Source: Mya arenaria (taxonomy: Eukaryota; Mollusca; Bivalvia; Myida; Myidae). From it: 64,000 nucleotides of DNA. Positions 1,564 to 62,500 of the stretch are shown here, piece by piece. The notes under the pieces are model-generated. The model was not told the origin of the DNA. It did no database searches and saw only the letters and a list, made by a program, of their open reading frames with translations. A program made the translations under genes and the position numbers. The DNA lies in assembly GCF_026914265.1 (NCBI RefSeq), contig NC_069124.1, forward strand, positions 88,188,915-88,252,914. Reading direction: 5' to 3'. Each line of letters begins with the position of its first letter. Positions within the stretch are counted from its first letter, which is position 1.

Positions 1564-4500
1564 CTCGATAAAGAACAGAGCTGAGATGACGAGGGTGCCG
1601 TACCGGACGACCTCGACCACCGTCACCAGGTTCTCGTGCAGGACGGGTGGGCATCCTCCAGGGTCGTACGCTCCCTGGGTCGGGGCGGGGGCGGTGCTCA
1701 AGTTGCTCGTGCCTGAGGCGCCCTGTACGGTTGTGACTGCTGTGGTGACTGGCTCCACCCCGGGAACTGAAACACGAACACATGGAAACTGTAAAAAAAC
1801 TGTAAAAACCAAGCATAATAACTAGAGTGTACCCGCTATAAGCATTGTAATTGATATAACCTTTAAAAACATGCCTTTGTTAATTGAACCGAAGATTAAA
1901 GGATATGAAACTGCGCATGAAAACTACACCTGAACAAATTGATGAAAATGACCAAATTTTACATAAAAAATATATTTGTAATATATGATATAACTAGTGT
2001 TACAGTACCTTTGATAACCTCGAAGTGTATGAGAATTTCTACCGCCGACATGAGCGCGTGCAGGAACGTGCACGTGATTACCAGGCACTCCCCGTACACG
2101 CTGTATAACCAGCGACAGCACGTGCATCTAAAACAAATCGGAGCACTGTAAGTACTAAAGAAAGGGATATCTCATCATTTAAAAGGGGATGCGGCTAAGT
2201 TATATAAAAAAGATATTGTAATAAGTGACACGTAAGTATCAATAAAGTGCATTTCTAATTTTATGAAAGCGTAGTTTTACCAAGTAGATATAGTTTTCAC
2301 GCTGATAGAATGATTGAGTTCGGTTGTCATTTTAACAAAGCTGATACGACAGTTCAGTTCTCTTTGTTCATTAGCCACAGGTGAACTATATAAGTTTATA
2401 TTAGATCGATGCATAACATAAAACATAAATTGTCGCCTGTAATGGCTCTAATGTACTTTCATTCTTCCAGCAGCAGCTGTCGTTCGTCTCCTGGCATGCT
2501 ATGTTTCCATGAATCACAAATCCTACCGCCAAACGCCCGAACTATGCAGACAAGCGTTAGAAGAAAACTTGGGCGATATTTTTGAAGAAGTCAATTCAAT
2601 CTAAATTTAATAAGGACCAAATATTCAACCAACCATTTATCTATAAGTATTTGGTATAAAGAATGAGTTTATGCAGGTCGGCCAGAGCCATTGGGTTGCA
2701 CTATGGCTTGACACGGCCTTGACCTCATCACCAGTGTTTCCATAGACATTTAGTGTTGTCTCTTTTCTTCCAAGAAACATTCAATTACGTAAAATGTATG
2801 CATTGCATTTTATCCTATCTGTAAACTTTCTATTTTTTCGGCGTACCCAATGCTCATGTTTGCCAATTATTTGCAAAATATATTGGTTTATCTTGGAAAA
2901 TCAGCCTGAGATTTGTGTAAAGAGTTTAACATAGTTTAATTTCTTCCTCATCCATGCAGAGAGGGATTGGTTTCTGCGAAAGATTGATAAATACACTTGA
3001 CATTTGATAAACCAGCGCTATCGTCTTAGTACTTTGGATTTGTGAATGAACTTTAATCATTATTTGTAATGAAGTCGTATCAATATCAAGTATTTCATTT
3101 TTCGAAACTGACTATCACTCGTTTCGATTGTTATCAATACAGAACTCCATAAACTTTCTTTTTTCTAAAGTCATCAATTTACTACAAGGAGTCTTATTAT
3201 CACTATTGCATTCTATGAGATGTTTTCATCTTCTGGTCAAATATATTTGATACGTGTATAGGTTCATACATCACACATACCCTGAGCCTAATTTCATTCC
3301 TCTGGGCTACAACACCACAATATCACTGTGATGACTGATTTTCAACAACTACATTAAAGAAATGTGCTCAGTGCAAAAGTAGATTTGAATAACCACCATG
3401 ACGATATCTTCAAATATAATTTCGTTCAATTTGTTTCAATATTAAGCCGGCATATAAGACACGTTCCCTCTCACTCGTGTTAGTGCTCTGAGGGCTTTGC
3501 CAAATTATAGAAGAGTTTACCATATTTTGGCCTAGAGAGCAGGATTTTAAGGCGAAACTATACCAAGCTTCGGAATGGTTTCAGGTGTCATGATGTTTGA
3601 CACTATCAACAATGTATGGCGACCTTGTGGTGATTGGTTTCATTACTTTTAAGAAATACATTTGCATTATTAACCGGGATGCGAATTTAAGTCACAATGT
3701 TTTACAATGGGACATTACCCATCACTTGTTCGTTTTGGACCATCCCTTTTACCTACATTGGCCACTATATTTTAGTTGCTCAAGTTTCGAACCCACCACT
3801 TAAGTCTAGGAGGGCGATATTCGGAAATATTTTGGACAACAAGTGTCAGGAAAGTTAACATACTTACTGGATCCAAACATAATGCTATTCAAAACAGAGG
3901 GCTTTCAGCCTTATGTCTGTCCCCACCTCATTGCTGGTTGTATACTTGTCAGTAGACATATAATTATGGTTTGACTGATTGGTAGTTTCCTGTGCACTGG
4001 TGTACATTCTGGGGCTCGAGCCCGGGACATCGTCGGACATATTCAACTACACGAACTCACCTAGTGTGATCTAACCCGGATATCATTGTAATCAATGCAT
4101 AGGTCCTGGGATAAAATCAAGCATCCTACATTATTTCTAGTTTTGTAAATACATGAAAAGGATTATTATAAAAATCCAACGCCATTTTTCGATTACACTT
4201 AAAAGAGAAATACCAATGAACAATGAAGGCAGAGGTACCAAAACATATCAAATAGACGGAATAACATTTTTATAGCTAGAATAAGTGTTTATTAATTCTC
4301 AAAATGCATAATATATATGTTGTTTAATACATATTTGACTGTTGAAAATTGAAAACCATGATATATTGAACGTATTTACATGAGAAAAAGGAGTGTTTAT
4401 ATAAATGAATGGCTCAATAGGTACACAAATATATACTAATTGGATGTATATGCAGTGATAATGTACATCATGGAATAATTAGCCTTGCCGCTGACTGCCT

Positions 4501-12776: not shown

Positions 12777-14641
12777 ATGCCTCCGAAAGTGACTTCTAGT
12801 GTTTGGAAGTATTTCACTTGAACTGAGGATGGTAAAAGTGTTGTGTGTAACTTGTGTAGTGTGAAACTTGTGTATTGTGGTGGGACTTCAAATCTAAGGA
12901 ATCACATGAAGAAGCATCCTGTGTGCAGTCCGCCATCAACTCCGTCTAAGACCCCCCCTGAAGCAGACGACACTTGACGTCACCGTTTCCACCCCTCCGA
13001 GGATGCAGGCTGCCACAACGGAGAGGGTTACCCGAGCGGTGACGGACTGGGTCGTACGTGACTGCCTTCCACTCAGCGTCGTCGACGGCCAGGGGTTCCG
13101 TGATATGATGGCCTTGGCGGCACCGTCTTATACAGTAAGTGTTATACAAATGTATTGTATACATGTACTGCACGTGCAATCATTTTGATATTGTCATAAC
13201 TTTTATAACTATGATATATTTCAGGTACCTACCCGGTACCTACCCGGCCGACAGTTCGTGCGAGGGTTGAGAAGAGGTACGCAGACGAACGCTCCAACCT
13301 CATCTCCCGGCTCGAGAAGGCGACGTCTGTCTCCCTCACGACAGACACGTGGACGTCCAACTCTACCGAGAGTTTTATCACCGTGACAGCCCACTACCTT
13401 GACGCCGAATGGATCCGGACGTCTTGATGACCAGAGCAATGCCAGAGCGTCACACAGCCGAGAACATCGCGTCCCGCCTACAAGAATGCGTAAGGGAGTT
13501 CGGTCTCACGGGCAAGGTGGAATGCTGCGTCCATGACAACGCCCGCAACATACAGAAGGCCGGCACACTCTGTCCAGAGTGGGGAGACCACTCCTGCTTC
13601 GCCCACACCCTCCAGCTCTGCATCAAGCCAGTCCTCGAACTTCCTTCTGTCTCCAAGGTCCTGAGCAAGTGTCGAAAGCTGGTAAGGCATTTCAAGCACT
13701 CAACGACAGTCACCGCTGAGCTACACCGTCGCCAGGAGCGGATGCAGAAGGAGGGCGAGAAGCAACCGACACTGGCCCTCATCCAGGACGTCCCCACGAG
13801 GTGGAATTCCACGCAGCTGATGTGTAGCCGCCTCGACAAGCTACGCCGGGTGGTCACTGACATCATGCTTGACGATGACGTCACGGAGGAGGCCGACCGC
13901 GATCTCCTTCTGAGAGACGGCGAGTGGGGCATCGTTGCCGACATATCCACAGTCCTTGGGCCGTTCACCCACGTGACCACCTTCATGAGTAAGGACAAGG
14001 ACGTATCCATCGGGGAGATGTTTCCCATCGTGTATAGTTTGGTTGGGAAAGTGTTGCAGCCCTGCAACAATGACACAGCGCTGGTCGCCTCGATGAAGAC
14101 CACTTTCCGGGATGAGATGACGGAGAGGTTCCAGCCAGGCCGAGATGAAACTGCCGAGTCCCTCCCGATGCTCGCCTCACTTCTGGACCCTCGATATAAG
14201 AAGTTAAGCTTCCTGCCCAGGCAGCTACGACGAAGGACACACACCATGCTGGAGGGCCGCCTTGACGATGTCCCGTTCAAGGTCAGCTCGCGCGATGACG
14301 GTGACTGTGCCACACCTGCTAAGCGACCACGGCTTGAGTTCATGGTCACAGCCCCGGAGTCATCGGTGGAGGACGATCTTCAGCTGTACCTTGCCGAGAA
14401 GATGGATGATGCAACACCAGCCCTCGAGTGGTGGCGGCGCAACGAGAACCGTTTTCCGAAGGTCGTGCAAGTGGCCCGTAGCGTCCTCGCGGTTCCCGCT
14501 ACATCTGTGCCATCGGAGCGCGTATTTTCGTCCGCCGGGCTTGTTCTGAACAAGTTGCGCAACAGACTTAACAGTGACATTGTTGGTGCCATCTTGTTCC
14601 TAAACAAGAACATGCGTTCTGTGAAGTGTGACACTGAGTGA
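12777..14641 (+). pseudogene. hAT transposase, ZBED-like, interrupted
   Basis: The first exon starts at an ATG at 12777 and encodes a BED-type zinc finger (CNLC ... LRNHMKKHP). It ends at a donor ACA|GTAAGT at 13134/13135. The second exon starts after TTTCAG at 13225, and the uninterrupted C-terminal part covers 13409-14641. That part has the RNase H-fold core and, near its end, the hAT dimerisation domain with ATSVPSERVFSSAG. Lesions: a TGA inside the BED finger; a frame change associated with a run of seven C at 12951-12957; a tandem duplication of the 11-bp GTACCTACCCG at the start of exon 2; and a shift near 13425. The similarity is to ZBED1/ZBED4-type hAT proteins. GC content is much higher than in surrounding DNA, a common feature of young transposase genes. 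Confidence 0.9.
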
Positions 14642-15844: not shown

Positions 15845-17345
15845 AAATGCCAAATGTCACCTGACTTTCACTTCACCCCGGTTACCGATAAAGATATTGG
15901 AAAATACATTGACAGGTTAAATAAAAAAAAGCAACTGGTATCGATCTGATTTCTTCCAAAATCATCATTGCTGGCAAAATCACTTTACAGGTTCATACAT
16001 GGCCATTGAAATTATTAGCCAAGGATCATTTCCAAATAGTCTTAAGCTAGCACAAGTTACTCCATTTTCAAGAAAGATGACCCCTTTATTGAAAAGAACT
16101 ATATACCAGTCAGTGTTTTACCATCAATGTCCAAATTATATGAACGGTTCATAAGTGAGTAAGTAATTTCGATAACATTTTTCATCCTTTCCTGGCAGCA
16201 TTCAGAACCACATCTGGATTTCAAACTACTTTGTTAAGGCTGGTTGAAGAGTGGAAAAAAACCCTTCATGAGAACAATTATGTAGGCGCAGTTCTAATGG
16301 ACCTCTCAAAAGCATTCGACTGCCTGCCCCATGATCTCATCTTATATAAGCTTAATACATATGGTATCTCACCCCAAGCATGTAGACTTATACACAGCTA
16401 TCTTACAAACAGAAAGCAACGTGTCAAACTTGGTCAATTTACCAGTGAGTGTGACTCCATCCTGATAGGCGTACCACAAGGATCAATATTAGGGCCTTTA
16501 GTTTTCAACATCTTCCTAATCGTCATATTTTACTTTATCAATAATCCAGCTTTATATAATTATGCAGATCAGAATACTCATTTTGTGTGCGATAAAAATC
16601 CTGAAGTTGTTAAGACCACTCTTAAGAAAGAAAGTAACATTTTGATTAGCTGATTGTTTACCAATCAAATGCAGGCTAACCCTGACAAATTTCAAGCAAT
16701 TTCAGCTGGCTCAAAGTATTGTAAAGAAATAAAACAATTTAATATACTTAATCACAACATTTTTTGTGAAGATAAATTGAAACTTAGGTGTTGAGGTAGA
16801 TAGTTTATTAAATTTTGATGCCCAGATTTATACAATATGCAGAAAAGCAGCTAAGCAATTGAATATTCTTCAAAGACTAAGCAAATTTTTGACAACCAAT
16901 ACTAAGCTTATTATCTTTAAATATTTTATCAGATTCAATTTCAACTACTGTCCTGTCGTTTGGCATTTTGGTAGCAAGACCAACACAGAAAAAATTGGAA
17001 AAGGTTCAATACAGAACGAAAATCTTCCTCAAAGAGTTCAATTGGCAACATTACATTTGAGCAGGGTAAGATACATTGCTATTGAAACTTACAAATGTCT
17101 GTAAGGTATCTCACTAGAATATGTTCAAAACTTTGTAACTTTTAAGACATGTAATTTTAATCTAAGATACGAAAACTGTGTAGATGTTCCATCAGTAGGA
17201 CCAACTATTAATATGGGAAAAACTCTTTCAGCTGTAAGGCCAGTCAGATTTGGAACAGCCTACTAAAGGAAATAAGGTGATCCGAAAACTACCAGGAATT
17301 TAGCAGGCTGATCAGCACATGGACAGGTCCTTCTTGTAAATGTTC
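15845..17345 (+). mobile_element. Decayed LINE (Jockey/CR1-like reverse transcriptase)
   Basis: The longest open piece (16231-16653) has reverse transcriptase motifs: MDLSKAFDCLPHDLIL (block with the first catalytic Asp), GVPQGSILGPLVFN, and YNYADQ, where the expected YADD has lost its second Asp. Upstream, 15850-16140 retains the KKATGID-type block and the PVSVLPS-type region in other frames. Downstream, 16770-17280 retains the C-terminal domain seen in such LINEs (LNILQRLSKFL, then YCPVVWHFGS and RVRYIAIETYKCL). Several frameshifts and stops make it non-functional. It has no LTRs, and the endonuclease part is missing, so it is 5'-truncated, as is usual for LINEs. Confidence 0.9.
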
Positions 17346-35752: not shown

Positions 35753-35874
35753 GTATCGGAATCGACAATCACATAAAACTGCGTGTGAAGCTCACTGTAC
35801 AATCGAACAGTACCCACCAATTGTAACTACGCTGATTTCTGAAACAGTGGCTGTAAACACAGCATGATAGAAAA
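35753..35874 (+). promoter_or_regulatory. Proximal 5' flank/leader of receptor copy 1
   Basis: The 122 bases before the ATG are nearly identical to 58082-58202 before copy 2 (ATAAAACTGCGTGTGAAGCT, then ACAGTGGCTGTAAACACAGC). Everything upstream of 35753 is different DNA. No TATA box was recognised. Confidence 0.6.
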
Positions 35875-37188
35875 ATGAAAGTAGTCGACGTACACGTACC
35901 TGTTGTTTCAATATGTTTTGTGATATTCGCTGTTTGCACGCGCAGTGTAGGACACACATTCAATGACACACGGACACTACTGTCTGACCTTCTGAATGGA
36001 TACACGGCGGACGTGCGGCCGGTGTTCGACCAGGCCGCCCCACTCCACGTTAACATGAGTATGGACCTTGGCGCCATCCAGGACTTAGACGAAGTGCAGG
36101 AAAAAATCACTATAGTTACGGGGCTGTATATGGTGTGGATGGACGCCGGGCTCAAGTGGGACCCCGCGCTCTACAACGGCATTCGGGAGATTACGATTCC
36201 TTCAAACAGCGTCTGGACACCTCAGGTCATCTTGGTTAGTTCTATTGGCCCCCTTAAACCGATAGGCTCGGATCAAGGCTGGCTGACGGTCAGGTACAGC
36301 CATGACGGCAGCGCCTTCTGGAGCCCCGGGGACGGGGTTGTCTCTAGATGCATACTCGACGTAACTTTGTTTCCTTTTGATACGCAATCCTGCGAGTTTA
36401 AGTTCATTCCCTGGGGCCAGCTTGCGCGAGATGTGATGCTTAAACACATGGAAGACACGGTTCTGACCACTTTCTACGAGGAGAACGCCCAGTGGGAAAT
36501 AGTGTCCTCCCACGTGTCGTCCGGCGATACCGCGGGGGGCTTCTCTCATTTCACTGTAATGATTGATCTGAGACGGCGTCCAAAGTTCTTCTTTGCAACC
36601 TTCATGCTGCCGGTTGTCGTCATTAACCTGTTAAGCATCTTCGTATTCTGCATTCCTGTTCAGTCGGGTGAGAGATTATCTTTTACAATCACTGTTCTTA
36701 TGTCCGTGGCTGTGTTTATGAACATTGTTGTTGCTAATTTGCCTCGAAATTCGAAGAATATGGCTATTGTATGCTACCTTTTGTTGGCTAACGTGTGTAT
36801 CTGCGCTTTGGTGGTCCTGCAGACTATTTTGAGCTTGTCTATATACTACAGGAGCACACGAGTGCCACGCTGTGTTGCCGTTCTGACAAGGAAATTGATA
36901 TCTGTTCGAGATCAGACCAAAGCGCAATTTAAAAAAAGAAGCAAGCATGGTCTGCATCTGGAAGAAAAGGAAAATGATAAAGCAAGCAATATGGACGGGA
37001 GTGTCGAATGCAACTCCATCGGCGAAACGTCTGGTAGTGTGACGTCAAGTAACGGCATTATGTGGAATGACGTCAGCAAAGCCACGGATCGTGTGCTCTT
37101 TTGGTTGTCATTAGCCTGGTTTACTACCACAGCACTTCTATACATGGGATTTGTTCTGTACCATTATACAGATTCCTTAAAGAACTAA
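35875..37188 (+). CDS. Nicotinic acetylcholine receptor-like subunit, copy 1 (437 aa, intronless)
   Basis: A full-length Cys-loop ligand-gated channel subunit in one exon. Signal peptide about 1-26; sequons at N30 and N60; Cys-loop C159-C173 (CILDVTLFPFDTQSC); transmembrane helices about 238-261, 266-288, 296-322 and 406-430; cytoplasmic loop about 325-405. The pore begins G-E-R (E266 at -1', R267 at 0'), as in cation-selective receptors, with no Pro-Ala insertion. The 9' gate is Met276, whereas most family members have Leu; 20' is Ala instead of Glu. The Trp residues corresponding to loop D (W88) and loop B (W180) are present. Loop C (211-224) lacks the vicinal Cys pair and its tyrosines, and the loop A Tyr is Val, so this is a non-alpha type subunit, perhaps forming only a complementary face. 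It is about 93% identical to copy 2. Molluscs are known for large expansions of this family. Confidence 0.95.
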   Translation: MKVVDVHVPVVSICFVIFAVCTRSVGHTFNDTRTLLSDLLNGYTADVRPVFDQAAPLHVNMSMDLGAIQDLDEVQEKITIVTGLYMVWMDAGLKWDPALYNGIREITIPSNSVWTPQVILVSSIGPLKPIGSDQGWLTVRYSHDGSAFWSPGDGVVSRCILDVTLFPFDTQSCEFKFIPWGQLARDVMLKHMEDTVLTTFYEENAQWEIVSSHVSSGDTAGGFSHFTVMIDLRRRPKFFFATFMLPVVVINLLSIFVFCIPVQSGERLSFTITVLMSVAVFMNIVVANLPRNSKNMAIVCYLLLANVCICALVVLQTILSLSIYYRSTRVPRCVAVLTRKLISVRDQTKAQFKKRSKHGLHLEEKENDKASNMDGSVECNSIGETSGSVTSSNGIMWNDVSKATDRVLFWLSLAWFTTTALLYMGFVLYHYTDSLKN

Positions 37189-37379
37189 ACTTATCTCAGA
37201 TGAAGCATGTTGAATATAAAAATGCCTGTAGAAATGAGCTTTCGAATACAATTGGGATTCTAGAAAACTAAATTTTGTGCCATGAAATGCTTACAGATAT
37301 TCAATTTTATTTTGATGTAAATAGCATTTCGAAAGAGATTATACATGTGGTAAAGCGACATATTCTTAATCTCATACAT

Positions 37380-37610
37380 ACGCATTCATAATGTATTGTA
37401 TATCTTATATATACGCATACATATATTGTATATCTCATATGCACGCGTTCATATATTGTATATCTCATATACAAGCATACATACTATTTTGTGTATATCA
37501 TAAATACGCATACATATATTCTATATATCATAAACACGCATACATATATCCTATATATCATATATACGCATATATATAGTGAAACACTCATACATATATT
37601 GTAAATCGCA
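37380..37610. repeat. Short satellite of the ATATTGTATATCTCAT family after receptor copy 1
   Basis: About seven degenerate units of 26-32 bp built on CATACATATATTGTATATCT follow the copy 1 3' flank. The same satellite, greatly expanded, follows copy 2 at 59690, so it was part of the ancestral duplicated unit. Confidence 0.85.
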
Positions 37611-38268: not shown

Positions 38269-38670
38269 CCGGACTAAATTGCAGTATAAAGGACCCTTTT
38301 CGAGATGTTGCCCTTTGTGGTGTAAGTGAAATAACTGCTGCATAACGCGACGCATAAAACCGTGAAGAGTTATTCACCATAACCATGTTTAATAGATCGT
38401 TTTGTTAACAATTGTCAAAGCCGTCTAAGCCGTCTTGGGTTTCCGCGTTAATTCACTCTCAAGGTTCGGGTAAAATGACACCAAAGACTTGTGATGGAGT
38501 TTAACCATGAGCGAATGTTATGACATGTGTAAGGCGCCGAATAATTTGTAGCAATCTTTGTGATAGAGGGGAGATACACGTTATAGTTAATACCCTGAGT
38601 ATTCGCGAAATTCATTTGGCTTCCAGCTGCGTGAAGTTGTAAGTAGAAGACCGCTGTTAAACACAGCTAT
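38269..38670 (+). repeat. Repeat R, copy 1, left part (interrupted by the LTR element)
   Basis: This is the reverse-complement match of about 56830-57231. Shared blocks include TTTTCGAGATGTTG, AACTGCTGCATAACGCGACG, TTCACTCTCAAGG and CATACCCTGAGTATTC-like sequence. It breaks at 38670, where the LTR retrotransposon begins after its CTAT target duplication, and resumes at 46311. Its function is unknown; it is non-coding. Confidence 0.85.
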
Positions 38671-39557
38671 TGTAGCGGAACCGCATAGTTGCACGATTAC
38701 CGCCCTTTGTTATAAATTAGCCATTTGCGCTTACAAAGTTAAATATCTGGCGGTGTATTTCGAAGGTTAGTTTTACATTTTAGACTTATTTATTCCATAC
38801 AAATATTTTATTAGCGACAATAATAATTAAAGAAATCATGTTAAACATTATTAATTAACCGGGAGTTTTTTCATAAAGAGTATAAGTAAAAATAAAGCCG
38901 TCTCCCTTCATGTTTTCGATAAGTGGAATATACCCGTTTTACCCATCTTAATAATGAACTCGTCCGCCCGGTAGTATATAAGCGCGTCGCTTAGCTAAAA
39001 GATTCATTCTGTGTTTGACCCCCGTGGAGGTAACTTCAAACAGTAAACCGGAAATAGTTAATAATTAGAGTCTTGACCTTCTGGCTGTTTATAATTGAAC
39101 ACCGGGCATTGTGATCTGTGGGATAAAAAGGCACCAGGAACTTGACATCTATAGGGTTATCTAGCGTTCCAGTTCAAGTAGCCAGATACATAGAGCATTG
39201 CGATTTAGTCTGGTGAACGGATCTGGTGGCTAGAAACTCTAATAAGCCTCATACCCGACAACTGCGTTGGCCACAGAGCATTGCGATCTGCGCGCTGACA
39301 AAGGTTAAGGTATTTTGCATCGCCAATAAACAAGCTCCCGTAAGAGAAAGCCATTCATCATTAAAGTGACTGAACTTTATAAAAACCAATGCATAATCTT
39401 TGAACCCTGATTATTTGGTTGATTATGTTTTAGCTCACCAATCATTTTTCGAATCATTTGTTTTAATCATAAGGCAAAGTAGCCTGAGGAAAATTTATAT
39501 AAGAGCGATCCATATAGGCTCTACGACACCGATTGAACATACAGCCGGCTCGTTACA
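38671..39557 (+). repeat. 5' LTR
   Basis: 887 bp, TG...CA ends. A TATATAA box at 38975-38981 is followed by AGCGCGTCGC and could be the element's own promoter; the 3' LTR keeps the same box. Near-identical to 45411-46310. Confidence 0.95.
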
Positions 39558-39561
39558 AAAT

Positions 39562-39579
39562 TTGGCTCCCAACGTGGGA
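39562..39579 (+). other. Primer binding site region
   Basis: TTGGCTCCCAACGTGGGA lies four bases after the 5' LTR end. Its form is close to the TGGCGCCCAACGTGGGG-type sites common in invertebrate Gypsy elements. The tRNA species was not assigned. Confidence 0.6.
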
Positions 39580-39590
39580 CAACATTAAGT

Positions 39591-40800
39591 ATGGATCGAA
39601 CTTCATCACAGGCAGACCTATATGAAGAACGAGAGATGATGGCCAGAGAAATCGAACATTTAAAGCGGAAGGTGCACATTCTACAACTAGAGAAAGAAAT
39701 AGCGATGGCAAAACGGGACTTGGATTTATCCAGTAGCAGACTTGTGACTTCCACGCCTAAGCCAGGGGTTCACACGCGATGTGGTGTAGGCATAAATACA
39801 CCTGCTAGGACCGATTTTGTCACGGAGAGGCGACGGTTAAAAAGTGAGCCTGGGGCCGACGAAGCTGGGATCGGTACTGTTTGTGGTGGTCTGAAACCAC
39901 AAGCAATTGAGACTTGTCTGGGCCAGACAAGTAAGCCATTAAGGGCTTGAGGCTCAGCAGGTAGTGACAAACGTACCGTAATGAAGCCGGCTACGTTTGA
40001 TGGAAATGGTGCCTGGACTGATTATAAGGCACATTTTGAAGCTTGTGCTATGTTAAATGACTGGGATGATACCCAAAAGGGTCTTTATTTGTCAGTGTGA
40101 TTGCGAGGACAGGCACAAGGTGTTTATGGCAATTTGGCCACGAAAACAACTAATTACACGGATTTAGTTCAAGCCCTTGAGAAGAGGTTCGCTCCTCCGA
40201 ACCAGACTGAACTATATAGAGTTCAGTTGAAGGACAGGCGACAGAGAGCTACAGAATCGATTACTGAGTTAGGGCAAGATATTCGTCGCCTGACGAACCT
40301 TCATATCCAAGCGCACCTGTAGATGTGCGCGAGACATTGGCAAAAGAGCAGTTTGTGGATGCTCTGGTGAATTCGGATATGCGATTGAAAATAAAACAGG
40401 TTAGGCCTGTGTATTTGAATGACGCAGTACGTCATGCTGTAGAGCTTGAGGCTTTCTACAGGGCTGAAAGAAAGGGCCAGGGTGTTGTTAGCCTAGCCGC
40501 AAACGAAAGTTCACAAAATACTTCCGATGTAAAGGAACTTATGAAGAAAATGCAGGAAATGCAATGCACTATTGATAAGTTATCAAAAGAAAGGCAATCA
40601 CCACCACAGCCTCAGACGAATAACGGCTATAGAGGAAACAACCAGTACCAAAACCGGGGTCCTAACAGGAACAATGAAAGAAGATGTTTTGAATGTGGGT
40701 CGAAGGACCATTTGAGAAGGAATTGTCCCCAATTGAAAGCTGCTCAACCCAATGCAAAGACGGGTGAGCGTAATGTTTACAATTCAAGTAATAAATTGTC
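39591..40800 (+). pseudogene. gag region of the LTR element
   Basis: It opens with a charged, probably coiled-coil stretch (EREMMAREIEHLKRKVHILQ). A capsid-like helical part follows (LVQALEKRFAPPNQTELYRV), and it ends with a CCHC nucleocapsid knuckle (CFECGSKDHLRRNC). The region is broken. Boundaries are approximate. Confidence 0.85.
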
Positions 40801-42770
40801 AGGCATGTTTGCAACAGCAAAACTTGAAGGCTGTACCATTGAATGTTTAGTTGATACAGGGGCAACACTCACCTTAATATCAAGTAAACTATGGAAAAGC
40901 ATACACGACACTCATAAGCTGATAGAATTTTCAGACCCCATAATTTCGGCTTCAGGAAACAATATGTCTATTTTGGGCTGTACTGACATTATTCTTGAGT
41001 TAGGAAATATCAGATGTCCAGTGAGGGCTCTAGTTGCTGAAATAAATTTAGATGTAATATTGGGCATAGATTTTATGCAGTCACATGAAGTCACGATCGA
41101 GACGATGGAGCCAGGCATACAGAGAATAGGGCTGGGATTAATTGAGCCAAGTGAGCGGTTTCAAGTACTTGGGAATGGATTTGTCGCCAGGTCGTTAGTG
41201 TATGCACAAGAAATCGTACCTGTCAGACTAGTAAACTTTTCAAAAGAGACACAGACTTACTATCCCGGAACGAACGTGGCTACTATCAGTAAAGTGGACA
41301 GGGTAGAAGAAAAGTCGACAAAACTTAAATATGGTGATACCTTACCTGAACATATGAAAGATATGTACGCTAGGGCATCTGAAGGTATGACCGATGGAAA
41401 CAAGTTGAAGATTATGGACCTTTTGAAGAAATATTCACATATTTTCTCAAAGGATGATCATGATTTAGGCCGGACGGGTATAATAAAACATCGGATACCC
41501 ACAGGAGACGTACGGCCTATCAAGCAACCTTTAAGGCGTGTCCCAATACACATGAGAGATGAGGCTGATCGACAAATAGACACTATGCTGGAAAATAACG
41601 TAATACAACCCTCTACAAGCCCTTGGTCCAGTTGAATAGTTCTTGTGAAAAAGAAAGATGGGACAAAGCGGTTCTGCATTGATTATCGTCGTTTAAATGA
41701 CGTAACCATTAAAGATGCATACCCATTACCAAGAGTGGATGAATTGCTGGACCAGCTTGCTGGAGCTAAATGGTTTTCATGTCTTGACCTTATTTCTGGG
41801 TACTGGCAGGTCGAGATGGCAAGTGAGGACAAAGAGAAAACCGCATTTAGCACGCGCAAAGGCCTATTCGAATACAATGTCATGCCTTTCGGCCTTTGTA
41901 ATGCGCCAGCCACGTATGAACGCCTGATTGAGTCGGTATTGACAGGGCTGCAATGGCAAATATGCCTCATCTATCTAGATGATATCATTGTGGTAGGACG
42001 GACTGTAGATGACATGATCGAAAATCTGGACAAATTTTTTCAAAGATTTGAGGAAGCTGGACTGAAGCTAAAACCAAGGAAGTGTCAGCTCTTCAGAGAG
42101 GAAGTTGAGTTCTTGGGGCATGTCATATCAGAGCACGGCGTTCATACAGATCTGAAGAAAATAGACAGTGTCAAGAATTGGCCAACACCGAAAAATCAAA
42201 CAGAGGTTCGGTCTTTTCTTGGTTTATGTAGCTACTACCGTCGTTTCATTAAGAACTTTTCTCAGATTGCAAAACCACTGTTTAGGCTCACGGAAAAGAA
42301 TGTTAAATACTTTTGGACGCCTGATTGTGAAAGCGCATTCACAGCACTAAAACGGATGTTAGTGTCGGCTCCGATCCTTGCCCAATCTAATTTTGAATTG
42401 CCGTTCATTTTCGATATAGATGCAAGCGATTGTGCAATTGGTGGTGTGCTGTCTCAGAAAGTTAACGGAGTTGAACATGTAATTGCTTATGGAAGCAAAA
42501 CTCTTTCAAAGTCAGAAAGACAGTATTGTGTCACGAGAAAAGAACTGTTGGCTCTTGTTCATTTTGTGAAGTTCTACCGACACTACTTGTATGGACGTAA
42601 GTTCTTGATACGGACAGATCATGGGTCTCTCAGATGGCTTATGAATTTTAAAAATCCTGAAGGACAGGTAGCTCGCTGGTTGGAAATATTGGCACCATTT
42701 CAGATGGACATCGAACATAGACCAGGCAGACAACATGGTAATGCTGATGGATTGAGTCGTATACCGTGTC
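40800..42770 (+). pseudogene. Protease, reverse transcriptase and RNase H region of the LTR element
   Basis: The aspartic protease active site reads CLVDTGATLTLIS, with ILGIDFM downstream. Reverse transcriptase shows FCIDYRRLNDVT, FGLCNAPATYERL and the catalytic YLDDIIV, followed by FLGHVISEHG and FLGLCSYYRRFI of the thumb/connection. RNase H shows DIDASDCAIGGVLSQ and ends near HGNADGLSR. All catalytic motifs are of Ty3/Gypsy type. Confidence 0.92.
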
Positions 42771-43069
42771 GTCAGTGTGGTATTTTAGACCACGATAAAA
42801 CCGTTGTACGGATACAGATACTCCCAACTTCCAAAGAAAGACAACCGCTGATGATTTGCATGCAGAGCAGTGCAAAGACAGTGATTTGACAGAAGTGCGA
42901 AACTGGGTCCAGGATGGAAAGAAACCTTGGTTTAAAAACATAGGTTCTGCTAGTTACCAGGTTAAGTCGCTATGGAACCAGTTTGAAATGCTTGAAATAC
43001 ACGACAAACTGTTAGTTCGTAAGTGGGATGACAAAATGACAAAAGTACTGGTCAGATTTTACACCAGGT

Positions 43070-44140
43070 GATTTTACCTCTTAAATGTCGCAGAAATCTT
43101 TTGTCTTTGGCACATGATGCAAAACCATCTGCACACCTAGGCATACGAAAAACAATAGCCAAAATAAGACAAAGTTTTTATTGGCCTGGGTTACGTAATG
43201 ATGTAAAAGTTATGTGGGTGGTTGTGAGACTTGTTTGAAAAGAAAAGGATCAAACAAAACAAAAGAAGCTCCTATGCAAATTGTGAGATCCGGGTATCCG
43301 ATGGAGAGGCTAGCTTTGGATATTTTGGGGACTCTACCGGAAACAGAACAAGAGCATCGGTATATTTTGGTCATTGGGGATTATTTTACAAAATGGACAG
43401 AAAGTTTCGCCATGAGCAACATGGAAGCAGAAACCGTAGCAAAATTGCTAGTGGAGGAAGTAGTAGCACGATTTAGTGTTCCAAACAAAATTCATTCCGA
43501 CCAAGGAACACAGTTCGAGGGAAAAGTATTTCATGAGATGTGCTCACTTCTTGGCATCAAAAAAACTCGAACTACACCATATCACCCGCAGTCTGACGGA
43601 ATGATAGAACGGTTTTACAGGACTCTTGTCACTATGTTAAGCCATTATGTGAATCATCGGGACTGGGATATGCAAATACCGTATGTAATGATGGCATACC
43701 GAAGTGCAGAGCATGAAACGACAAGCACGAGTCCAAACATGCTAATGCTGGGAAGAGAAGTGTCAACGCCACTTGATCTGGTTTTTGAATTACCAACAAG
43801 TATGAAACCAATTCCGGATAGTATTTGGGTTTGGGAATTGCAGGAACGTTTAGAAACTGTTCATAACACTGTACGCCAAGCAACTGGACACGCAATGAAA
43901 CGACAGAAACAAATCCGTGATAAAAGGAATTCTTATGAACATGTCGATATAGGGGATAAGGTTCTCGTGTATTTTCCCGTTAGGAAACCGGGTACAAGCT
44001 CAAAGTTTACATCTTTTTGGCGTGGCCCTTAAGCGATTTTAGGTAAACTTTCGGATGTTTTATACAAAGTAGATTGCGGTCGAAAGAAAGCCGAACAAGT
44101 TATACACTGTGATCGTATAAGAAAGTGTAAATCTCAGATT
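43070..44140 (+). pseudogene. Integrase region of the LTR element
   Basis: The zinc-binding head is near 43100-43260 (HLGIRKT, CETCLKRK). The core has LALDILGTLP, HSDQGTQFEG and TPYHPQSDGMIERF, giving the D-D-E arrangement. The C-terminal part has DIGDKVLVYFP, followed by a region with CDRIRKC. Confidence 0.9.
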
Positions 44141-45051
44141 TTGCTAGGGGAGACAGCTGATAGGACAATAACTGATTATGATATTGATGTCGTTGAGAAC
44201 GGTTTGGATGATGAGATTGTATATACGAAACGTAAGAGAAATGCACCTATATGGACAAAAGATTATGTTCTTTCTATTTTCAGGTGGATAATGGCAAATA
44301 CTAAGGTCACTGAAAGAAAGAATAAGGACGAGGGTTTGACAGAAAGTGTTGACAGTCGCACTTGTGAGATTTGCTCAAAGGTGTTTAAGAGGAGGGCCTA
44401 CATGCAAAAACACGTGCGCAAAGTACATAGCAAGAAGGACAGTGAATCAATCGGATACGGATTGGTCGCTAGAAAGTGATCCAGATGTTTTCGTTGAGGA
44501 AGGAGTCCATGAGCACACAGGACAAATCAAATGACAGTTGTTGGAAACAGAAGGAAAGTGTGCCTGCAGCAGGAAATAGTAAAGGCATTGAAAATGTGAA
44601 GCTGGTTACAAAGAAAGGAAAAACGAAGATCCAGGAGATAGAGAAGGCAAACAGTATCTTCAAGGGCAGAATGTATCGAAAACCAACCTTCCCGGTGCCA
44701 GTATTTGCTACCAAGAGGAAGTACAACGACGTACCTGCCAAAACTATGCCAAAGAAGTTCAGTTTTCAGCCGAGAACAACTGTGACTGAAGTTCAGACAG
44801 ATCTCATAATGGTAAAGCGAGGATCAGGAGAGTCGGAGATGCAGACGGAAAATGACATGTCAGACAAGCCCATGGATCAGCTGAAAAAGTTTGTTTGTGA
44901 ATATTGTGGGATCCAGTATAGCGACTCAGTCATGTATTACGTTTATGCTGGTTGCCATACTATGAATGCGCCTTTGAGATGTAACATTTGTGGGCAAGAT
45001 CAGAAGGACAGTCAGTCCTTCTATATTCATCTCACTTGGGGACACAAGTAG
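44140..45051 (+). pseudogene. Extra 3' region with C2H2 and Ikaros/Hunchback-like zinc fingers
   Basis: After integrase the element continues for about 0.9 kb. A classical C2H2 finger (CEICSKVFKRRAYMQKHVRK, then H) lies near 44360-44440. After a basic, low-complexity stretch, a finger pair closes the region near 44890-45050: CEYCGIQYSDSVMYYVYAGC then H, and RCNICGQDQKDSQSFYIHLT then H. The spacing, the VMY motif, the GCH motif and the CNICG start of the second finger match the C-terminal dimerisation fingers of Ikaros and Hunchback proteins. Standard Ty3/Gypsy elements lack this region. Capture from a host gene is inference. Confidence 0.75.
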
Positions 45052-45150
45052 AAACTGATTCTGATCTTCATTTGTTTTTTAGATTATATTCAGTTTACCA
45101 TCACTTAAGGCAAAGTGTTTCAATGAGAGTGTTTAGTTGTGACAATGTTT

Positions 45151-45151
<1 letters not shown>

Positions 45152-45206
<55 letters not shown>
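45152..45206. repeat. (ATT)n microsatellite inside the LTR element
   Basis: About 18 perfect ATT/TTA triplets lie between the zinc-finger region and the 3' LTR. Confidence 0.95.
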
Positions 45207-45410
45207 GAAAAAAAAACCTGTGAATTCGTGGCACTAACATTTACGAAACATTTTTTTAAGATGAGAAATTGTTGAACTTTATTGACATTTTTAAAATTGC
45301 ACATTGTATCATGTTGTTTGTGGTTACAAACTTGTTTTATTAAAAAGTTCATTGTTTGATCATTTTTTTATTAATCATGCAGGGACGCATGAACTCGGAG
45401 GCGTGGGTAA

Positions 45411-46310
45411 TGTAGCGTAACCGCATAGTTGCACGATTACCGCCCTTTGTTATAAATTAGCCATTTGCGCTTTCAAAGTTAAATGTCTGGCGGTGTATTT
45501 CGAAGGTTAGTTTTACATTTTAGACTTATTTATTCCATACAAATATTTTATTAGCGACAATGATAATTAAAGAAATCATGTTAAACATTATTAATTAACC
45601 GGGAGTTGTTTTCATAAAGAGTATAAGTAAAAATAAAGCTGTCTCCCTTCATGTTTTCGATAAGTGGAATATACCCGTTTTACCAATCTTAATAATGAAC
45701 TCGTCCGCCCGGTGAGTATATAAGCGCGTCGCTTAGCTAAAAGATTCATTCTGTGTTTGACCGCCGTCGAGGTAACTTCAAACAGTAAACCGGAAATAGT
45801 CTTTTGAAGGCAAATAATTAGAGTCTTGACCTTCTGGCTGGTTATAATTGAACACCGGGCATTGCGATCTGTGGGATAAAAAGGCACCAGGAACTTGACA
45901 TCTATAGGGTTATCTAGCGTTCCAGTTCAAGTAGCCAGATACATAGAGCATTGCGATCTAGTCTGGTGAACGGATCTGGTGGCTAGAAACTCTAACAAGC
46001 CTCATACCCGACAACTGCGTTGGCCACAGAGTATTGCGATCTGCGCGCTGACAAAGGTTAAGGTATTTTGCATCGCCAATAAACAAGCTCCCGTAAGAGA
46101 AAGCCATTCATCATTAAAGTGACTGAACTTTATATAAACCAATGCATAATCTTTGAACCCTGATTATTTGGTTGATTATGTTTTAACTCACCAATCATTT
46201 TTCGAATCATTTGTTTTAATCATAAGGCAAAGTAGCCTGAGGAAAATTTATATAAGAGCGATCCATATAGGCTCTACGACACCGATTGAACATACAGCCG
46301 GCACTTTACA
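45411..46310 (+). repeat. 3' LTR
   Basis: 900 bp, matching 38671-39557 with about twenty differences and a 13-bp extra segment (about 45801-45813). It is preceded by a purine-rich GGAGGCGTGGGTAA likely to act as polypurine tract. CTAT follows the last base. Confidence 0.95.
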
Positions 46311-46447
46311 CTATAAAGTTTTGACCTTGAAGTTTTAACCATTCGAGTTTTTTAACATAAAAACCCCTCTGCTGTTGATATGCTCAACTACTTACAAATA
46401 AAGAAAATTTATTAATAAACCAATGTCAGATGACCGATTACTTTATG
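46311..46447 (+). repeat. Repeat R, copy 1, right part
   Basis: The homology with 56690-56815 (inverted) resumes here: CCCCTCTGCTGTTGATATGC, AATAAACCAATGTCAGATGA and TTACTTTATGTTAT. Together with 38269-38670 this reconstitutes the host repeat split by the LTR element. Confidence 0.88.
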
Positions 46448-58081: not shown

Positions 58082-58202
58082 GTATCGGAATCGACAAACA
58101 CATAAAACTGCGTGTGAAGCTCACTGTAAAAGCGAACAGTACCCACAAATGGTAACAACGTTCATTTCTAAAACGGTGGCTGTAAACACAGCACGATAGA
58201 AA

Positions 58203-59513
58203 ATGAAGGCAGTCGATGTACGTGTTGCTTCAATATTTTTTGTGATATTCGCTGTTTGCACGCGAAGTGAAGGACGCACATTCAATGACACACGGACACT
58301 ACTGTCTGACCTACTGAATGGATACACGGCGGACGTGCGGCCGGTGTTCGACCAGGCCGCCCCACTCCACGTTAACATGAGTATGGACCTTGGCGCCATC
58401 CAGGACTTAGACGAAGTACAGGAGAAAATCACTATAGTTACGGTGCTATATATGATGTGGCTGGACGCGGGACTCACGTGGGACCCCGCGCTCTATAATG
58501 GCATAAGGGAGATTACGATTCCTTCAAACAGTGTCTGGACACCTCAGGTTATCTTGGTTAGTTCCATTGGCCCTCTTAAACCGATAGGCTCGGACCAAGG
58601 CTGGCTGACGGTCAGGTACAGCCATGACGGCAGCGCCTTCTGGAGCCCCGGGGACGGGGTTGTCTCCAGATGCATACTCGACGTAACTTTGTTTCCTTTT
58701 GATACGCAATCCTGCGAGTTTAAGTTCATTCCCTGGGGGCAGCTTGCGCGAGAGGTGATGCTCAAACAAATGGAAGACAAGGTTCTGACCACGTTCTACG
58801 AGGAGAACGGCCAGTGGGAAATAGTGTCCTCCCACGTGTCGTCCGGCGATACCGCGGGGGGCTTCTTCTCTCATTTCACTGTAACGATTGATCTGAGACG
58901 GCGTCCAAAGTTCTTCTTTGCAAACTTCATGCTGCCGGTTGTCGTCATTAACCTGTTAAGCATTTTCGTATTCTGCATTCCTGTTCAGTCGGGTGAGAGA
59001 ATATCTTTTACAATCACTGTTCTTCTGTCCGTGGCTGTGTTTATGAATATTGTTGTTGCTAATTTGCCTCGAAATTCGAAAAACATGGCTCTGGTTTGCT
59101 ACTTGTTGTTGGCTAATGTGTGTATCTGCGCTTTGGTGGTCCTGCAAACTATTTTGAGTTTGTCTATATACTACAGGAGCACACGAGTGCCACGCTGTGT
59201 TGCCGTTCTGACAAGGAAATTGATATCTGTTCGAGCTCAGACCAAAGCGTTATTTAAAAAGAGTAGCAAGCATGGTCTGCATCTGGAAGAAAAGGAAAAT
59301 GTTAAACCAAGCAATATGGACGGGAGTGTCGAATGCAAATCCATCGGCGAAACGTCTGGAAGTGTGACGTCGAGTAACGGCATTACGTGGAATGACGTCA
59401 GCAAGGCCACGGATCGCGTGCTCTTTTGGTTGTCATTAGCCTGGTTTACTACCACAGCACTTCTATACATGGGATTTGTTCTGTACCATTATACAGATTC
59501 CTTTACGAACTAA
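58203..59513 (+). CDS. Nicotinic acetylcholine receptor-like subunit, copy 2 (436 aa, intronless)
   Basis: A tandem paralogue of the 35875 gene, in the same orientation and also a single exon. Layout: signal peptide about 1-24 (MKAVDVRVASIFFVIFAVCT); Cys-loop of 13 residues between the cysteines; four transmembrane helices; cytoplasmic loop; short C-terminus. The N-terminus is two residues shorter than copy 1, and one Phe is added before the first helix (GGFFSHF versus GGFSHF). The pore differs: Ile at 1' and Leu at 9' (VLLS), the usual gate residue, where copy 1 has Met. The loop C vicinal cysteines and aromatic residues are absent here too. About thirty residues differ overall, clustered in the signal peptide and cytoplasmic loop. 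Both copies are open, so both may be functional. Confidence 0.95.
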   Translation: MKAVDVRVASIFFVIFAVCTRSEGRTFNDTRTLLSDLLNGYTADVRPVFDQAAPLHVNMSMDLGAIQDLDEVQEKITIVTVLYMMWLDAGLTWDPALYNGIREITIPSNSVWTPQVILVSSIGPLKPIGSDQGWLTVRYSHDGSAFWSPGDGVVSRCILDVTLFPFDTQSCEFKFIPWGQLAREVMLKQMEDKVLTTFYEENGQWEIVSSHVSSGDTAGGFFSHFTVTIDLRRRPKFFFANFMLPVVVINLLSIFVFCIPVQSGERISFTITVLLSVAVFMNIVVANLPRNSKNMALVCYLLLANVCICALVVLQTILSLSIYYRSTRVPRCVAVLTRKLISVRAQTKALFKKSSKHGLHLEEKENVKPSNMDGSVECKSIGETSGSVTSSNGITWNDVSKATDRVLFWLSLAWFTTTALLYMGFVLYHYTDSFTN

Positions 59514-59689: not shown

Positions 59690-62500
59690 TATATCCTATA
59701 TAATGTATACCTCATACACGCACACATAAATTGTATATCTCATAGATTCATACATATGTTTTATATCTCATACACGCATGCATATATTGTATATCTCATA
59801 CACGCATGCACATATTGTGTATTATATATACGCATACATATATTCACGTATAACTCATTTATGCATACATATATTCACGTATATCTCATACCCTCATGCA
59901 CATATTGTATATTATATACACGCATACATAAATTCACGTATAACTCATCTACGCATACATGTATTCACGTATATCTCAAACACGCATACATATATTCACG
60001 TTTATCTCAAACACGCATGCGCATATTTCATATCTCATACACGTTTACTTATATTATGCATATCATACACGTTTACATATATTTTATATTTCATACACGC
60101 TTACATATACGTGGGTTGTTCGAAAAGTTTTGAGACTGCATTCATAATAATCAAACCACTCCAAGGATGCATTTAAAATTTTACCAGCTGACAGTAATAT
60201 CTAATATAAACAAACTCTGAAAGTTTCAACAATACAGTACGGAGTGAATGTTTACAAACATTACAAAAAGTACAGGGTACAAGCCACGGAGCAGTTCATA
60301 GTCTCATTGCGTCACGTCATTTACAGTTCGTATAATTTTCTATAATTGTACCTCGTCTACGCATACACGTATCGTATATCTCATACACGCATACATGTAT
60401 TGCATATCTCACACAAGCATACATATATAGCATATCTCATACATGCTAACACATTTCTATATCTCATACACGCATACACGTCTTGTTTATCTCATACACG
60501 CATGCACGTCTTGTATATCTCATACACGCATACACGTCTTGTTTATCTCATACACGCATGCATGTTTTGTATATATCATACACGCTTACACGTATTGTAT
60601 ATCTCATACACGCATACACGTATTGTATATCTCATACACGCATACATATATTGCATATCTCATACACGCATACATAGATTGCATATCTCATACACGCTTA
60701 CACGTATTGTATATCTCATACACGCATACACGTATTGTAAATCTCATCTACGTTTACACGTATTGTATATCTCATACACGCATACATATATTGCATATCT
60801 CATTTACGCTTACACGTATTGTATATCTCATACACGCATACACGTCTTGTTTATCTCATACACGCGTGCATATAGTGTATATCTCATAAACGCTTACACG
60901 TATTATATATCTCATACACGCTTACACGTATTGTATATCTCATACACGCATACACGTATTGTTTATCTCATACACGCATGCATGTATTGCATATCTCATA
61001 CACGCTTACACGTATTGTATATCTCATACACGCTTACACGTATTGTATATCTCATTCTCGCATACACGTATTGTATATCTCATACACGCATGCATGTATT
61101 GCATATCTCATACACGCTTACACGTATTGTATATCTCATACACGCATACACGTATTGTATATCTCATACACTTTTACACGTATTGTATATCTCATACAGG
61201 CATAAACGTATTGTATATCTCATACACGCATACATATATTGCATATCTCATACACGCTTACACGTATTGTATATCTCATACACGCTTACACGTATTGTAT
61301 ATCTCATACACGCATAAACGTATTGTATATCTCATACACGCATACATATATTGCATATCTCATACACGCATACATATATTGCATATCTCATACACGCTTA
61401 CACGTATTGTATATCTCATACACGCATACACGTATTGTATATCTCATACACTTTTACACGTATTGTATATCTCATACACTCTTACACGTATTGTATATCT
61501 CATACACGCTTACACGTATTGTATATCTCATACACGCATAAACGTATTGTATATCTCATACACGCATACATATATTGCATATCTCATACACGCATACATA
61601 TATTGCATATCTCATACACGCTTACACGTATTGTATATCTCATACACGCATACACGTATTGTATATCTCATACACTCTTACACGTATTGTATATCTCATA
61701 CACGCATACACGTATTGTATATCTCATACACTTTTACACGTATTGTATATCTCATACACGCATACACGTATTGTATATCTCATACACGCTTACACGTATT
61801 GTATATCTCATCTACGCATACACGTATTGTATATCTCATACACGCATACACGTATTGTATATCTCATATACGCTTACATGTATTGTATATCTCATCTACG
61901 CATTACACGTATTGTATATCTCATACACGCATACACGTCTTGTATATCTCATACACGCTTACACGTATTGTATATCTCATCTACGCATACACGTATTGTA
62001 TATCTCATACACGCATACACGTATTGTATATCTCATACACGCTTACACGTATTGTATATCTCATCTACGCATACACGTATTGTTTATCTCATACACGCAT
62101 ACACGTATTGTATATCTCATACACGCTTACACGTATTGTATATCTCATCTACGCATACACGTATTGTATATCTCATACACGCATACACGTATTGTATATC
62201 TCATACACGCTTACACGTATTGTATATCTCATCTACGCATACACGTATTGTATATCTCATACACGCATACACGTCTTGTTTATCTCATACACGCATGCAT
62301 GTTTTGTATATCTCATACACGCATACACGTATTGTATATCTCATATACGCATACATGTATTGTATATCTCATACAGGCTTACACGTATTGTATATCTCAT
62401 TCACGCATACATGTAGTGTTTATTTTTATCTCATACACGCATTCATGTATTGTATATCTCATACACGCATACACGTTTTGCATATATCATATACGCGTTG
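59690..62500. repeat. Expanded 28-bp satellite after receptor copy 2
   Basis: The unit CATACACGCATACACGTATT plus GTATATCT (28 bp) is repeated about 75-80 times from 60350 to 62500, with looser units at 59690-60110. Variants alternate GCATACACG and GCTTACACG. Because 28 is not a multiple of three and the plus strand of the unit has no stop, all three plus frames stay open for hundreds of codons with a 28-residue period. A mariner-like fragment interrupts at 60111-60345. The same satellite in short form follows copy 1. Confidence 0.95.
60111..60345 (+). mobile_element. Fragment resembling the end of a mariner element
   Basis: GTGGGTTGTTCGAAAAGTTT followed by TGAGAC resembles the terminal repeat of Tc1/mariner-type transposons. 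About 235 bp of non-satellite DNA follows, and then the 28-bp array resumes. No inverted partner was seen at the right side, so it is a truncated copy. Confidence 0.45.

Follow-up and report, generated by a model that had tools for sequence, protein, structure and literature searches.

Does a Ty3/Gypsy retrotransposon encode, past the integrase, paired zinc fingers of the kind that closes Ikaros and Hunchback proteins, and what might such a pair do there? The question is raised by a locus in a window of 64,000 nucleotides (the whole stretch of DNA that was analysed), for which a first-pass annotation had proposed a Gypsy-type element at 38671-46310 with an extra region between the integrase and the 3' LTR. 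Both are present. The segment 38671-46310 is a 7.6-kb Ty3/Gypsy LTR retrotransposon, as identified from its LTRs, its target site duplication and its Pfam domains, and all of its features given below lie on the plus strand. The LTRs (TGT...ACA) occupy positions 38671-39557 and 45411-46310, and a 4-base target site duplication, CTAT, is found on both sides of the element, just upstream of the 5' LTR (38667-38670) and just downstream of the 3' LTR (46311-46314). When the slices 38671-39556 and 45412-46311 were aligned, 867 of 901 columns matched, 18 were mismatched and 16 had a gap, i.e. the LTRs are ~98% identical with gaps excluded. A putative primer-binding-site-like stretch, read from the sequence, lies directly 3' of the 5' LTR (39563-39579).

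The internal region follows the standard plan of the group. A Gag CCHC zinc knuckle at 40682-40732 scored under its Pfam cut-off (19.2 bits for a cut-off of 20.8) and has all four ligands in its sequence. It is followed by an aspartic protease (40814-41098; PF13650, PF13975 and PF00077, each over its cut-off), by a reverse transcriptase and RNase H (41645-42700; PF00078, 1.1e-36; PF17917, 2.3e-33), by an integrase core (rve, 43301-43588; PF00665, 2.2e-14) and by an integrase C-terminal domain (p58_C, 44036-44122; PF22938, 29.8 bits for a cut-off of 27). The order protease-reverse transcriptase-RNase H-integrase, obtained from Pfam searches of separate pieces, is that of a standard Ty3/Gypsy element. 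Within the window, BLASTN revealed no further copies of pol or of the tail described below and no LTRs other than the two of the element, and neither Rfam nor a tRNA scan gave a match anywhere in the window.

The pol frame of this copy is interrupted. In-frame stops are present at 41633-41635 and at 44030-44032, with the p58_C domain starting directly after the latter; at about 42887-43201 eight stops are found in frame, partly bridged by another frame, and a change of frame separates a lone C2H2 finger from the finger pair. With these stops and frame changes, the examined copy is broken, and it is presumably inactive despite LTRs that are ~98% identical with gaps excluded. Though broken, the element is fairly recent.

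Other features of the window were recorded around the element. Two ORFs of ~440 residues each that resemble nicotinic-receptor channels (Neur_chan_LBD and Neur_chan_memb) are found at 35857-37188 and 58200-59513; they are 93% identical (408/439), flank the Gypsy element at a mutual distance of ~22 kb, and are copies of a duplicated gene that is apparently without introns. These channel ORFs make an animal the probable source of the window. Just 3' of the second channel gene, a 28-base unit forms tandem arrays at 59698-60109 (14 copies) and 60359-62496 (76 copies). As similar repeats, spaced by ~30 bases, also occur behind the first channel gene (37360-37592), the array may have been duplicated along with the gene. 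A hAT transposase ORF with its C-terminal dimerisation region is located at 13403-14641, with a long ORF antisense to it at 13450-14379, and a reverse transcriptase fragment at 16159-16653 (RVT_1, E 9.5e-14) is, by its look, perhaps of the non-LTR type.

The extra region consists of a finger-bearing tail of ~300 codons that follows the integrase. The first-pass annotation had described in it a C2H2 finger and then a finger pair with VMY, GCH and CNICG features, in which one expected His of the first finger is a Tyr, and each of these features was recovered. The lone finger (CX2CX12HX4H, 44363-44428) matched zf-C2H2 at 1e-4 with 23 bits, for a cut-off of 25.2, and shares the frame of the integrase (mod 3 = 2). 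The pair is held by an uninterrupted ORF of 192 codons in another frame (44473-45051, mod 3 = 1), so that in the examined copy it is out of the integrase frame. By chance, such a frame would stay open with a probability of ~1e-6 given the base composition of the window, or of ~8e-4 given the local density of stops. The ORF begins with a spacer (44473-44889) that is basic (27 K/R and 16 D/E among the first 136 residues), and ends with the pair (44890-45048). In the first finger of the pair (44896-44958), Tyr (44944-44946) stands where the first His is expected, a change that could be due to decay; the second finger (44980-45045) is of the form CX2CX12HX4H, and its last His is one residue ahead of the stop codon (45049-45051). 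Since the tail is placed between the integrase and the 3' LTR, inside nearly identical LTRs, its position suggests that it came with the element.

Attempts to characterise the tail by other means were less informative. Codon-usage scores were 0.050 and 0.044 for the two tail frames, 0.063 for the sequence downstream of the stop, -0.022 for the fingers by themselves and 0.097 for the reverse strand of the fingers, and the test did not set the tail apart from the non-coding stretch 3' of its stop. Searches of the tail in Pfam, PHROGs and PDB sequences returned generic C2H2 or weak matches only, among them Sacchrp_dh_C in Pfam (E 0.023, 15.3 bits, cut-off 31) and function-unknown entries in PHROGs (best E 0.0019, for the piece that holds the lone finger). 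When the structure of 44860-45048 was predicted without related sequences, one model had a mean pLDDT of 72 and the remaining four had 41-47; the only predicted helix spans residues 4-16, and the fingers show none beyond it. The spacer contains two putative motifs, VQTD (44791-44802) and MQTE (44839-44850), which resemble those bound by dynein light chain (LC8); 3 of 20,000 shuffles have two such motifs. As this motif was picked once the sequence had been seen, these sites are only a lead.

To what extent does the pair resemble the Ikaros type? The comparison used reference letters that we take to be those of human IKZF1 fingers 5-6 and of Drosophila Hunchback. In BLASTP, the pair aligned with this assumed IKZF1 sequence without gaps at 21 of 54 positions (39% identity, 52 bits) and with the assumed Hunchback sequence at 17 of 50 (43 bits). 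With phmmer and the same assumed references, the pair alone gave 47.7 bits to IKZF1 and 37.7 bits to Hunchback, in one stretch each, and the complete 192-residue tail ORF gave 47.6 and 34.2 bits, respectively. When the window was represented by its 2069 stop-to-stop ORFs of 20 amino acids or more, each assumed reference matched a single one (E up to 1), the tail ORF at 44473-45051. In the Pfam profile search, no family dedicated to C-terminal pairs of the Ikaros/Hunchback type turned up, and the assumed IKZF1 fingers themselves fell under every cut-off.

The likeness was then set against chance and against other fingers. The seven zinc-ligand places were fixed and the other 41 positions of the pair were permuted 20,000 times. 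The observed scores were 121 against IKZF1 and 107 against Hunchback, the permutation maxima were 85 and 80, and none of the 20,000 permutations reached the observed score with either reference. A chance likeness to the Ikaros type is thereby rejected. The same applies to a classical DNA-binding pair: the two classical pairs that were scored, a consensus C2H2 pair and Zif268, reached 60 and 55, compared to 121 and 107. Among the references scored, the fingers are therefore nearer to those of the Ikaros/Hunchback C-terminal type than to either classical pair.

A control against the PDB (177,635 sequences) was less clear-cut when whole-sequence totals were considered. The best score of the tail ORF was 31.9 bits (HIC2). 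The pair alone reached up to 40.1 bits (PRDM9), a total over five stretches that exceeds the Hunchback total of 37.7 but not the IKZF1 total of 47.7. In any single stretch, the pair reached no more than 19.2 bits among the best 5 of 47 chains. The assumed IKZF1 pair itself obtained a total of 42.4 bits with HIC2 in the PDB, with a best single stretch of 25.0 bits. Whole-sequence totals of multi-finger arrays separate poorly, whereas single-stretch scores stand well apart; the argument is therefore built on the latter and on the permutations. Chains labelled Ikaros, Eos and Helios in the PDB were matched weakly by the tail ORF (E 0.06 to 0.13); the pair alone matched chains with the Ikaros and Eos labels (E 0.0019 to 0.0098). 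Combined, these comparisons of letters indicate that the likeness of the pair looks real and specific to the Ikaros/Hunchback C-terminal type.

How would an element have come by such fingers? The natural answer would be capture from a host gene, and the location of the pair at the very end of its ORF, as in Ikaros-family proteins (PMC12506653, in excerpt), supports an origin of this type. A capture need not involve the whole family: a piece of host transcript, the 3' end of an Ikaros-like gene, may have been gained by recombination during reverse transcription in a single event, with no role in the family. Only one copy is known, its fingers are already degenerate (Tyr for His) and out of frame, and an unbroken 192-codon ORF is what a processed transcript or a terminal exon would leave behind. 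Against such a one-off transduction, the lone finger lies in the integrase frame, the 192-codon frame is still open at the low chance probabilities given above, and stops as well as a frame change are likewise found in the remainder of pol, so that decay does not single out the tail. We consider a one-off event improbable.

Alternatively, the tail, with its C2H2 fingers behind the integrase, may be an old, ordinary and widespread property of a Gypsy clade in the animal group of the host, its Ikaros likeness being due to ancient capture or to convergence. Extra proteins or domains are described for some LTR retrotransposons (PMC12440569, in excerpt), in keeping with such a history, but convergence looks unlikely given that none of the 20,000 permutations reached the observed scores, and no such clade is described in the titles and abstract openings of the open-licence papers among the matches listed. 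We give this reading little credence. The same titles and abstract openings contain no description of Ikaros-type fingers in a Gypsy element, and the excerpts of PMC6238403, PMC12440569, PMC2836005, PMC2577118, PMC8672886 and PMC13228809 make no mention of them in Gypsy elements.

Tail-bearing relatives were looked for in two collections of contigs. None was found in viral contigs with pieces of the tail, the integrase and the reverse transcriptase or with a DNA pattern of the finger pair, a pattern that recovers the window's own pair as a positive control; nor was any found in prokaryotic genome contigs with a slightly looser finger-pair pattern and the reverse transcriptase piece. These negatives mean little, because viral and prokaryotic collections are poor places for animal retrotransposons. 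One 3.8-kb contig labelled as a Synechococcales MAG matched the reverse transcriptase at 2276-3406 of its 3847 bases (42% identical in the best segment), with ~440 bases remaining 3' of the match; it is perhaps a eukaryotic contamination of the bin.

The explanation that we tentatively favour, while regarding it as far from settled, is that of a Gypsy Pol with a host-derived Ikaros/Hunchback-type tail that would serve as a protein-interaction module, mainly for tethering to host chromatin. The Pol of the lineage would have an extended C-terminal tail, or else a separate 3' ORF, in which a C2H2 finger and a basic spacer precede the Ikaros/Hunchback-type pair at the extreme C-terminus. The pair would have been captured from the 3' end of the coding sequence of a host transcription factor. 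In relatives that still function, it would provide the integrase or Pol product with a module for protein-protein contacts. By analogy with the chromodomain, its most likely role would be to tether the integration complex to Ikaros/Hunchback-type host chromatin proteins or to their partners; a secondary role might be to aid the formation of Pol or integrase multimers. Such an interaction role is the most likely one in intact relatives because the Ikaros pair dimerises and because a chromodomain occupies the same place after the integrase in other elements. Fusion to Pol is supported by the lone finger, which follows the integrase C-terminal domain and shares its frame. Against this explanation stand the single copy with no tail-bearing relative in viral or prokaryotic contigs, the position of the pair out of the integrase frame, the Tyr ligand, the HX4H spacing and the non-discriminating codon usage. 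The stronger form of this proposal, in which a Gypsy lineage captured the dimerisation fingers of a host Ikaros/Hunchback-type transcription factor and, by means of these fingers on its integrase, targets chromatin to which such factors are bound, is rather doubtful.

Integrases act as multimers, and the tail, if coding, might work mainly by self-association: the pair would dimerise Gag-Pol or integrase with no host partner, and would help particle assembly, protease activation or intasome formation. Ikaros-type C-terminal pairs are indeed described as modules for homo- and heterodimerisation, a function served by the two C-terminal fingers of the Ikaros family (PMC12506653, in excerpt). As the GPY/F motif has already been described for multimerisation (PMC2836005, in excerpt), the need for a further module is less clear, and we hold self-association as the main function to be unlikely. 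HBL-1, which bears such a pair, is reported not to homodimerise (PMC12506653, in excerpt), and the fold alone is therefore no proof of dimerisation.

Compared to known systems, the tethering proposal combines properties that are otherwise found apart. With the Ikaros/Hunchback pair, as far as its assumed letters go, the pair of the element shares the register, VMY, GCH, CNxCG, the spacing between the fingers and the C-terminal place; the assumed Hunchback pair has GYH in place of GCH. It differs from them by the Tyr for one His and by its second finger, which is HX4H and not the HX5H that we take the Ikaros and Hunchback sequences to have. Unlike Ikaros/Hunchback proteins, the element has one finger ahead of the pair rather than four DNA-binding fingers, and the pair is carried by a retrotransposon. 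With Ty3/Gypsy elements (Metaviridae) it has in common the LTRs and target site duplication, the protease-reverse transcriptase-RNase H-integrase order and the p58_C integrase end, and the counterpart of their CCHC knuckle is just under cut-off; the ~300-codon finger-bearing tail after the integrase sets it apart.

Integration-targeting tails of LTR elements are, to our knowledge, few, and the chromodomains of chromoviruses have such a targeting role. A tail derived from the interaction domain of a host transcription factor would constitute a new way of choosing insertion sites and a case of domain capture from host to element. Ginger1 DNA transposons likewise join additional C-terminal domains to a Gypsy-type integrase, and differ in being DNA transposons with a single transposase, the added domains being OTU-like or Ulp1 proteases (PMC2836005, in excerpt). 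Chromoviruses carry a chromodomain after the integrase (PMC3605345 and PMC12440569, in excerpt). The element has an additional module at that same place; unlike theirs, it is of the zinc-finger type, and no chromodomain family matched the two tail pieces searched (Pfam, E up to 1). If our proposal is true, the tail would be a transcription-factor-borrowing analogue of the chromodomain.
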